DNA from: Ignavibacteria bacterium
GTDB taxonomy: Bacteria > Bacteroidota > Ignavibacteria > Ignavibacteriales > SURF-24
DNA: 41,218 nucleotides
Direction: 5' to 3'
NCBI GenBank assembly: GCA_025612245.1
Contig: JAAXKQ010000025.1
Span: 1-41,218 of the forward strand
Shown here: in pieces, positions 38,859-41,218 of the stretch
Layout: each line of letters begins with the position of its first letter
How positions within the stretch are numbered: the first letter of the stretch is position 1
Program-made: the position numbers and the translations under genes
The notes under the pieces: model-generated
Database searches by the model: none
What the model saw: the letters and a program-made list of their open reading frames with translations, nothing else
Told to the model about the DNA's origin: nothing

Positions 38859-39380
38859 CTATAGATATCTGGTCCTTATAATGTCGGTATGGTGGCGTTC
38901 ATGTCCCGCGGTAATAAAGGCCAGGGCCCTTACGGTAACTTCAAACTTGGAAGCCACGCCTTTTCTGAACCAGGCATCTGGCGGAAGAGAGCGGAAAAGG
39001 CTTATCGTTGAGCGTCTTACGTGCTGAAACTCCTCCACCAGGTCGTGCCACGGATACTCATTACAGTCGCTCTGGCGAACGTATTCATCCTGGTCAAATC
39101 CCGGCAGCTCCTGTCGGTCGCCGCGTGCAAAGCGGAGTGCGCGCATGGTAAAGATGCGTTCGGCGTCAATAACGTGTCTTAGTACCTGTTTGATTGTCCA
39201 TTTATCCGGCTGATAGCTTCTAATTGCCTGGGCGTCCGAGATTGCCTTAAAGAGAGTTGAGGCGGTTTCGAGCTGAAGTTCCAGGGTATGTAACAGGTCG
39301 CCATCCGGCACAGCGGAAACGTACTGTTCGTAGTATGGCGCATATTCGGTTGGATCAGGGCGCATGATAGCACTTTCCAT
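38859..39380 (-). CDS. DinB/YfiT-family metal-dependent protein
   Basis: 173 residues, a four-helix bundle. The metal triad is visible: His69 (LRHVIDAERIF), His160 and His164 (AGHERHHTDI). Members include thiol-S-transferases (bacillithiol, mycothiol) and proteins of unknown activity. ATG 39380 follows AAAGGA at a normal distance; the longer start at 39407 adds nine basic residues. It is the last core gene before the right tRNA scar. Confidence 0.9.
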   Translation of the reverse strand: MESAIMRPDPTEYAPYYEQYVSAVPDGDLLHTLELQLETASTLFKAISDAQAIRSYQPDKWTIKQVLRHVIDAERIFTMRALRFARGDRQELPGFDQDEYVRQSDCNEYPWHDLVEEFQHVRRSTISLFRSLPPDAWFRKGVASKFEVTVRALAFITAGHERHHTDIIRTRYL

Positions 39381-39693
39381 ATCTAAATCCTTTCGCTTTT
39401 TTTTCAATTTAACAAAATATATGCAATATTGACAGACGGGGGAGGGGGAAAATGCTTAACGTTTAATGCTTAATGTATTACTTTTTAATTTCTAATTTTT
39501 AATTTTTAATTTCAACGACCTCAGTTTGAAGAATTATTAGTACTCTCCGGGCAAGTGTACATATGTGCGTAACTGCTACCGCGTTAAAGGTAGCATATTT
39601 GGAGGAAACACTTCCAAATTTAATCTCCAACCTGCCCATTTCGGTTACATGTTTTTATGCATTACCCTGGTTGTGGTGGAGGATAGTTTAAAA
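39381..39693. other. AT-rich intergenic region with two small hairpins
   Basis: No gene seen. A run of short AT-rich repeats (TTTTTAATTT type) lies at about 39480-39515. Two adjacent hairpins follow: GCTACC/GGTAGC at about 39576-39595 and ATTTGGA/TCCAAAT at about 39597-39620. Their role is unknown. Confidence 0.4.
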
Positions 39694-39728
39694 TGAAAAA
39701 ACCCTTAAAACAAAAGCTTTAAGGGTTT
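39694..39728 (-). terminator. Terminator of the original right-hand tRNA gene
   Basis: On the minus strand, AACCCTTAAA and TTTAAGGGTT pair across an 8-base loop and run into TTTTTTCATTTT. It starts 6 bases beyond the tRNA 3' end, as expected for a tRNA transcript terminator. Confidence 0.75.
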
Positions 39729-39733
39729 CTTTG

Positions 39734-39764
39734 TAGCGGGGCTAGGACTTGAACCTAGAAACGG
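39734..39764 (-). tRNA. tRNA 3' fragment (T-arm and acceptor strand), attachment site
   Basis: On the minus strand the sequence has a perfect T-arm, CTAGG-TTCAAGT-CCTAG, then acceptor strand CCCCGCT and discriminator A at 39734. The 5' half, D-arm and a proper anticodon arm are missing to the right, where the integrase begins. The tRNA identity cannot be fixed from this part. Because the terminator lies to the left, the host side is left and the integrated element is right; the rebuilt complete tRNA should be at the element's other end. Confidence 0.8.
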
Positions 39765-39820
39765 TTTATAATCTGCTTCTAAATATTTTTCTGAAAGATT
39801 TCTTTAGAAAGGAATCTAAA

Positions 39821-40822
39821 ATGGAAAGCAAGTTCTGGCTAGCGAAGCATAAAAACGGAATTTATTACATATATTATGTTGATGAAAATAATCACAGGCA
39901 AAGCAAGTCCACAAAAACAAGATATAAGAGTGAGGCGCTATCGGCCCATAGGGAATTTTTAGGTAAAAAAAAGAGTGAGGCACTCCAGCTGCTGACATGG
40001 GGGCAGTTCAGAGCGGACTTTATAAGACGCTCAGAGAGCATCCATTCATGGAAGACAACGCTGGATTATAAGAGTACCTTTAACGAGATGGAAAAGCATT
40101 TTGGACTTATTAGCATCTCAGAGTTCACCCAGAAGGGGATAGAGGAATTTATCCATAGAAAGATCCGTGAGGAATCCCTTTACACGGGCAGGAGACATCT
40201 TATAAACATCAAAGCCATGTTCAACCATGCGGTGGAACTGAAGTTACTGGAACATAACCCTGCCTCAAACATTAAACGGATCCGCCCCCCTGAGAAGCTG
40301 CCCGCTTTCTTTACAAAAACTGAATTTGAACGGTTTCTTAACGTAGTAGATGATCTGGAGTATAAATCGGTCATTGAATTCGCCGTTAACACAGGCCTGC
40401 GCCAAATGGAAATTATCTCACTAAAGTCAGGTCAGATCGACAGGGTAAACAGGATTATCATACTCGATAATCAGCATCATATCACAAAGTCGAAAAGGGT
40501 CAGAACAATTCCCTTAAACAAAAGGGCATTCGAAATTCTGGAGGGGAGAAATAATGATCCAGTATTTTCCCGTGAAGGTCGACCTATCTTACCCGATCAT
40601 CTTCAGGACAGATTCAGAAAATATCTGCTTAAGGCTGAAATTAAACACAAATTGACTTTTCACTCCTTAAGACACACCTTTACCACCTGGCTTCTGCAAA
40701 GAGGAGCTTCAATTTATGAAGTCTCCAAACTCTTAGGACATTCAGATATTAAGACGACAGAAATTTACAGCCATTTGAGCCCGAATGACCTCAGGGGGTC
40801 AACTGATTTGCTAAATGATTGA
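39821..40822 (+). CDS. Tyrosine recombinase / integrase
   Basis: 333 residues. An N-terminal arm-binding-like segment (about 1-50) is followed by a SAM-like core-binding domain (about 58-145) and the catalytic domain (about 160-330). The active-site residues are complete: Arg194 (TGLRQMEI), His281 and Arg284 (HSLRHTF), His307 (LGHSD) and nucleophile Tyr316 (TEIYSHL). The enzyme should integrate and excise an element by recombining at the adjacent tRNA. ATG 39821 has AAAGGA at a normal distance; a longer TTG start at 39749 lies inside the tRNA fragment and is rejected. Its position 57 bases from the tRNA fragment, pointing away, is typical of genomic islands. No excisionase is visible. Confidence 0.93.
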   Translation: MESKFWLAKHKNGIYYIYYVDENNHRQSKSTKTRYKSEALSAHREFLGKKKSEALQLLTWGQFRADFIRRSESIHSWKTTLDYKSTFNEMEKHFGLISISEFTQKGIEEFIHRKIREESLYTGRRHLINIKAMFNHAVELKLLEHNPASNIKRIRPPEKLPAFFTKTEFERFLNVVDDLEYKSVIEFAVNTGLRQMEIISLKSGQIDRVNRIIILDNQHHITKSKRVRTIPLNKRAFEILEGRNNDPVFSREGRPILPDHLQDRFRKYLLKAEIKHKLTFHSLRHTFTTWLLQRGASIYEVSKLLGHSDIKTTEIYSHLSPNDLRGSTDLLND

Positions 40823-40837
40823 AGTCAGATTATTAAA

Positions 40838-40897
40838 GGTAGTCTCCCAAACAGAATAAATTGTTATATAGAGAAATATATTAAAATGGAGACTACC
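40838..40897. repeat. Perfect 10-bp inverted repeat downstream of the integrase
   Basis: GGTAGTCTCC (40838-40847) and GGAGACTACC (40888-40897) flank 40 AT-rich bases. There is no T-run after the second arm, so a terminator is doubtful. It might be a recombinase arm site or the ends of a tiny element. Confidence 0.55.
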
Positions 40898-41163
40898 GAC
40901 TACTGTAATTGCCTTAGTTTTCATCAAATGCGGCATTAATTCAATGCTGGAATACTACGTTAAAAATCTTGGAAAGCTGACAGTGATGTCCTTGCCGATA
41001 GTGAGAGAATTATGTTCCTAAATTTGTATCTGCTAGAAGAATTAAAGATCGGACACAATGACTATTTTGGTAACAAAGTATCCTTTATAAAGTAACATAC
41101 TATTAAAATACTACTCGTATTGAGGATGATCTAAGAAATATCCTAATCTATTTTTTAAAATCC
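40898..41163. other. Non-coding tail of the integrated element
   Basis: AT-rich. The only open stretch (about 40906-41021, no start near its 5' end) reads VIALVFIKCGINSMLEYYV and then GKLTVMSLPIVRELCS. It may be a remnant of a membrane protein. No recognisable gene. Confidence 0.35.
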
Positions 41164-41218
41164 AGAGTCTGTCCAAGAATCCGTGTAATTGACCGATGCA
41201 GGCCTAAACATAAGATTT
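41164..41218. repeat. Insertion-sequence end, right copy of the 55-bp inverted terminal repeat
   Basis: The exact reverse complement of bases 1-55. The element's outer end faces left (boundary at about 41163/41164) and its body would extend beyond the window. The flanking bases differ from those at the left end, so no shared target duplication is seen. Confidence 0.75.

Follow-up and report, generated by a model that had tools for sequence, protein, structure and literature searches.

Probable attR junction of a tRNA-Met-targeted integrative element in an Ignavibacteria genome, and the position of the integrase at the attachment sites of its relatives

Results

The window, a stretch of 41,218 nucleotides that is the whole of contig C21, one contig of a 44-contig Ignavibacteria genome, ends on its right in what is, with a probability that we put at about 0.92, the attR junction of an integrative element that targets a tRNA-Met gene and carries its own tyrosine recombinase. 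The features of the junction and of its surroundings are as follows.

38859–39380, minus strand: DinB-superfamily gene (PF12867, E=3.6e-21), chromosomal flank outside the island
39687–39760, minus strand: attR identity block (tRNA T arm, acceptor end and terminator), 74/74 identical to L003:10220-10293 on contig C18
39734–39760, minus strand: 3′ fragment (27 nt) of a tRNA-Met gene, from comparison with the complete tRNA on C18 and its T-arm stem
about 39696–39731, minus strand: intrinsic terminator of the tRNA, from its fold
39789–39796, minus strand: putative arm-type integrase site TTTCAGAA; the motif is also at the C18 edge (three times) and at locus L136 (four times)
39821–40822, plus strand: tyrosine recombinase (integrase), 333 aa, intact frame, from PF00589, PHROG integrases and a XerD alignment
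40838–40897, plus strand: 60-nt hairpin GGTAGTCTCC...GGAGACTACC, 15 bp after the integrase gene; three copies in the genome, fold z −5.0
40944–41092, plus strand: decayed relative of the 70-aa ORF that follows a second integrase on contig C31 (tblastn 40% over 40 aa, E=0.016, frame broken)
41165–41218, plus strand: repeat edge, probably of an insertion sequence, ending the contig; 54 bp identical on C18
1–54, minus strand: the same repeat edge at the left end of the window, opposite in direction to the right-end copy

The fragment comprises the T arm, the acceptor 3′ strand and the discriminator and is followed by the terminator, whose hairpin has a fold z of −5.4 (0 of 200 shuffles were equally stable). 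A minus-strand tRNA 3′ end with its own terminator, as described in the initial annotation of this DNA, is therefore present. In the window no complete tRNA was found by ARAGORN, and Rfam at gathering scores returned nothing. The distance from the fragment to the integrase, given as 57 bases in the same annotation, is 60 bp between the identity block and the ATG at 39821. This ATG is the likely start of an open frame with a stop codon that ends at 40822. The protein matched PF00589 (Phage_integrase) with E=3.7e-32, confirming that an intact integrase stands beside the fragment. The R, HxxR, H and Y motifs of the catalytic domain were all found, and the protein aligned to XerD through the TGLR, HSLRH, LLGHSD and IYSH stretch, where the aligned residues presumably have their catalytic roles.

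A 118-bp query across the junction was found at one other place in the genome, C18:144219-144289, and ARAGORN identified a complete tRNA-Met(CAT) there, at L003:10174-10247. The shared block of 74 bp (C18:144219-144292) begins just before the T arm and ends just beyond the terminator, and the assembly has two copies of it only. An identity of this length is far beyond chance, and a chance resemblance to a tRNA was ruled out by it. A search for a tRNA gene with a matching 3′ end, which had been proposed together with the prediction that the same tRNA is complete at the other end of the island, thus located that copy: the tRNA-Met on C18, identical in its 3′ end and terminator. These results also agree with the claim that the island extends rightward past the window. 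The edge in the window is the fragment side (attR), with the integrase at that end, and the complete tRNA-Met is on C18.

Three G-C pairs at the base of the anticodon stem and the lack of a 1-72 pair are features of initiator tRNAs. Both can be read from the sequence of the C18 tRNA. A search for its anticodon-arm pattern at ≤1 mismatch gave a single site in the genome. The target tRNA-Met looks like an initiator, apparently encoded by the sole initiator gene of the assembly.

The part of the island that is visible on C18 measures 3.6 kb (about 5.0 kb together with that on C21) and has a GC content of 0.324 compared with 0.448 to its left. This low-GC DNA on the island side of the tRNA-Met includes two genes (L003 11442-13380), for which Pfam, PADLOC, NCBIfam and PHROGs gave no family assignment, only weak matches at chance level. 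In these two genes no family, of conjugation genes or otherwise, was found above its cut-off, and no PHROG match, to phage structural genes or otherwise, at E≤0.1. At E≤1e-5 the larger gene has relatives in two of 294 further genomes, one relative being interrupted by stops, and it is therefore regarded as an accessory gene. One of the two genes contains an RNDFFH stretch, which we take to resemble a HEPN motif; the other presumably resembles uracil-DNA glycosylases.

The outer flanks of the island were compared with those of the sister species G001, the sole genome of the same genus among 59 listed. The left flank on C18 matches G001 contig C62 over 10.3 kb (74%), and C62 stops in the middle of the tRNA. 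The DinB/Usp side of the window matches G001 contig C90 in three pieces (78–80%) plus the tRNA 3′ end. C90 starts with this 3′ end, continues with a GIY-YIG frame that the window does not have, and then with DinB and Usp genes as in the window. The DinB protein encoded next to the tRNA 3′ end in G001 is 88% identical to that of the window. Neither C62 nor C90 matches the island parts of C18 or C21, the tRNA 3′ end is a single copy in G001 at ≤3 mismatches, and G001 has no integrase match at E≤1e-40. Both outer flanks of the island thus sit at the two halves of one G001 tRNA gene, on separate contigs that break within it, with no contig across the site. Uninterrupted synteny through this point in relatives that lack the integrase had been named as an observation against the island, and as far as G001 allows a judgment the comparison favors the insertion. 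In C90, the nine bases that precede TTCTAGG are at odds with the sequence of the tRNA, and the complete anticodon-arm pattern was not found in G001, an absence that is expected if the assembly cuts the gene and equally if the site is rearranged; G001 could itself be rearranged there. In another relative, G003, degenerate tRNA-Met-like copies surround a complete tRNA-Met (L090 1140-1680), with a GIY-YIG-like reading frame, recognized by eye, between the copies.

The repeat edge begins at about 41165, 342 bp after the integrase gene, and is found at five contig ends (the end of C18, both ends of C21 and the starts of C31 and C33). It is probably that of an insertion sequence, an identity known from about 54 bp. 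The initial annotation had the contig stop at an insertion sequence after about 0.4 kb; the repeat edge is there, and its identity as an insertion sequence is what those 54 bp leave probable. By eye, the bases flanking the five edges do not pair as duplications, and a single insertion sequence that stayed undisturbed therefore does not by itself account for both ends of the island. No other end variant of the repeat edge was found at ≤3 mismatches. With the flanks unpaired and no such variant found, a single insertion sequence bridging C18 and C21 was unsupported. An inversion between flanking repeat copies as the origin of the position of the integrase gene was set aside by reasoning, because the gene stands outside the stretch between the copies.

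The hairpin after the integrase gene has the same 60-nt length in all three copies (window 40838-40897, L019 455-514 and L003 10558-10617), two of which stand 14–15 bp 3′ of an integrase gene. A search with its arms at one mismatch found them in this genome only, plus a 47-base look-alike in L113 (494-540), a hairpin-like inverted repeat (GGTTGTCTC...) about 1 kb past the 3′ end of a related integrase gene. Exact inverted repeats after the integrase genes at 29 relatives' loci had no common motif by eye. The second integrase of the same family, on C31, is broken by stops and lies beside a complete tRNA-Phe; its locus (L019 455-1850) also carries the hairpin, the 70-aa ORF and the repeat edge. 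Contig C16 (L200 1501-1603) has a decayed copy of tRNA-Phe with its terminator (88% over 103 bp), which may be the far end of the C31 element. By eye, the decayed ORF of the window resembles the 70-aa ORF at its start, and the C18 hairpin, with no integrase gene beside it, has a neighboring frame that resembles the small ORF. The C18 hairpin and this frame leave room for a tandem or decayed history.

The 8-mer TTTCAGAA/TTCTGAAA was counted at the edges of the island and at L136, a related locus. It occurs 11 times in the window, once between the fragment and the integrase gene; five times in the 14 kb of L003, with three copies in the roughly 60 bp that follow the att block; and four times in the 20 kb of L136, all four between the tRNA and the integrase gene. 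At a frequency of 0.22 per kb, three copies in the first 120 bp beyond the C18 block have a Poisson probability of about 3e-6, and one copy in the 60 bp before the integrase gene has a probability of about 0.013; both values are optimistic in that the motif was chosen post hoc. Considered by itself, the copy in the window gap departs only mildly from expectation. When aligned directly, the window gap and the C18 edge were not significantly similar (117 of 500 shuffles scored as high), and the C18 edge and L136 were (4 of 500).

A wider comparison covered this element and 17 others for which both edges were available, and scored 7-mers containing two or more G or C that occur at least three times in the two inner edges and on both sides. 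Such shared 7-mers were found in 15 of the 18 elements; among 5400 pairs of stretches drawn at random from these loci, 370 had one. L138, L152 and L153 had none. The top motif was more frequent on the tRNA 3′ side in 8 of the 15 elements, equally frequent in 6 and less frequent in 1 (L165), the far stretch being usually longer, which favors the tRNA 3′ side in elements with the integrase gene beside the fragment. By analogy with phage integrases, these motifs are probably arm-type integrase sites.

A search of 295 genomes, including that of the window, at E≤1e-40 found relatives of the integrase in 64 genomes (84 matches). Sixty matches were examined, namely the window, C31 and 58 further loci, the 24 left out being mostly weaker. 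The arrangement was assigned manually as T, when the integrase gene follows a complete tRNA in the same direction, or F, when it lies beside a minus-strand 3′ fragment. T accounted for 23 of the 60 loci (L167 being counted by a T arm at the contig end) and F for 16, window included. At 11 F loci the stretch examined also contains the matching complete tRNA, 5.3–17.6 kb away; that of the window is on C18, L139 has a far repeat only, and L148, L168 and L171 have the fragment only. Other tRNA arrangements were seen at five loci, and at 16 of the 60 no tRNA was recognized. L141 and L178 have a complete tRNA-Ser before the integrase gene on the opposite strand, and at L143, L188 and L197 the part of the tRNA duplicated at the integrase site is 5′ and not 3′. 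Two nearly identical integrases were found at tRNA-Glu genes in genomes of two different families (L137 and L140), where the integrase gene and the far tRNA are separated by about 6.3 and 16.3 kb, respectively; their near-identity suggests a recent transfer. A scan of viral contigs gave eight loci, with identities of 24–30% over longer segments, 37% over 59 aa and 50–53% over 40 aa.

A tree of the 23 T and 16 F integrases, in which the 5 rows with other arrangements and the 16 without a tRNA were left out, requires seven changes of label, six of them forced by starred branches. Shuffled labels required a mean of 12.6, and in none of 500 shuffles was the number as low as seven. The labels are therefore clustered and do not have a single origin. 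Seven T/F changes were again obtained on a 58-row tree without L172 and L173. The sister of the window in the tree is L136 (support 100/100), which has the opposite arrangement at a tRNA-Met gene.

Discussion

The island described here is one more example of the known type of tRNA-targeted tyrosine-integrase island. In the Islander database, an island is defined by a tDNA, a displaced fragment and an integrase between them, and 3760 of 3919 islands have a 3′ fragment and 1836 a site in the T-stem region (PMC4383910). Both those islands and this one have a complete tDNA, a displaced 3′ fragment and a tyrosine integrase inside, and in both the crossover spares the anticodon loop and falls in the T-stem region. 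The differences are that the interior is here unassembled and that the integrase gene is at the fragment end. Applied to our data, the Islander definition finds a complete tRNA, a cognate end fragment and a tyrosine integrase inside. The fragment would have the same orientation as the tRNA and lie downstream of it if C18 joins the reversed C21, which the G001 synteny supports. The length range is 2–200 kb, and about 5.0 kb is visible here with the middle missing.

In the KplE1 study (PMC2951348), 736 of 1273 integrase-tRNA pairs have the tRNA before the integrase gene in the same direction, and an irregular orientation among the pairs is remarked upon. As against this commonest arrangement, with the integrase gene after a complete tRNA, the gene in the window lies beside the fragment. 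IntS of KplE1, a self-regulated integrase encoded next to a tRNA, has the 5′ end of its gene next to att, as here (PMC2951348). Since the 5′ end of the window's gene adjoins att, its promoter is probably there too. L136, in the relative G065, is like the window in its integrase (57–59% identical), in its tRNA-Met with the same anticodon arm and in the TTTCAGAA motif; unlike in the window, its integrase gene directly follows the complete tRNA. Within 20 kb of L136 no far tRNA copy was found.

These observations led us to propose, at even odds, that in this clade the integrase gene has repeatedly switched sides of an otherwise conserved att site. The core would have arm-like sites to either side of it, the tRNA 3′ side being more often the denser one, and the gene could lie on either side with its 5′ end always against att. 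The window and L136, with tRNA-Met genes that share an anticodon arm, would be a switched pair. We found no description of a repeated side change within one clade in the open-access literature that was searched, and no claim of priority is made.

In the pathway that we infer, the integrase would bind the arm-like sites and recombine attP of the circular element with the T-arm region of the tRNA gene. The tRNA gene would then receive its 3′ end and its terminator from the element, which displaces the old ones. Upon excision, C18:144219-144292 would recombine with the copy in the window and the site would be restored. The cargo would lie between the C18 and C21 repeat edges, with 3.6 kb and two genes of it seen on C18. 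No single contig joins C18 and C21, and most of the cargo is in the unassembled middle. By reasoning, a swap of partners at the 74-bp blocks gives an empty site and a circle junction, so that a misjoin there would describe the same element.

Three alternatives were weighed. The element may have lost its mobility, leaving a dead remnant in which the integrase frame is still open. The repeat edges on both sides, the decayed small ORF and the stop-broken second integrase of this genome are consistent with such a fate, which we consider doubtful: the frame is intact with its catalytic motifs, and the two att blocks do not differ at all, pointing to an insertion that is recent or has been maintained. 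The second hairpin on C18, without an integrase gene, hints at several elements or at one in decay. A serial entry of at least two such elements into the same tRNA-Met, the integrase being that of the outer one and the C18 edge that of one without an integrase, would account for the orientation of this hairpin, which is that of the unit in the window, and for two inward repeat edges without matching flanks. We regard such a history as unlikely. A tandem is expected to have a middle copy of the att block, of which there are just two unless another is in the missing part, and the arm motif is common to both edges. A degenerate or chance tRNA copy next to an unrelated integrase, as the degenerate tRNA-Met copies of G003 might suggest, is extremely improbable given 74 identical bases, terminator included, and 11 further loci of the family with the same geometry and a complete tRNA at the far end.

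A tRNA-Met-targeted integrative element with its own recombinase is the reading that we prefer. An island edge on one contig correctly foretold the far edge elsewhere in the genome. The set of 39 scoreable att-integrase pairs that differ in the direction of the integrase gene makes the switching of its side at attP a testable proposition. In this organism, the apparent sole initiator tRNA-Met gene would now have a 3′ end and a terminator supplied by a mobile element.
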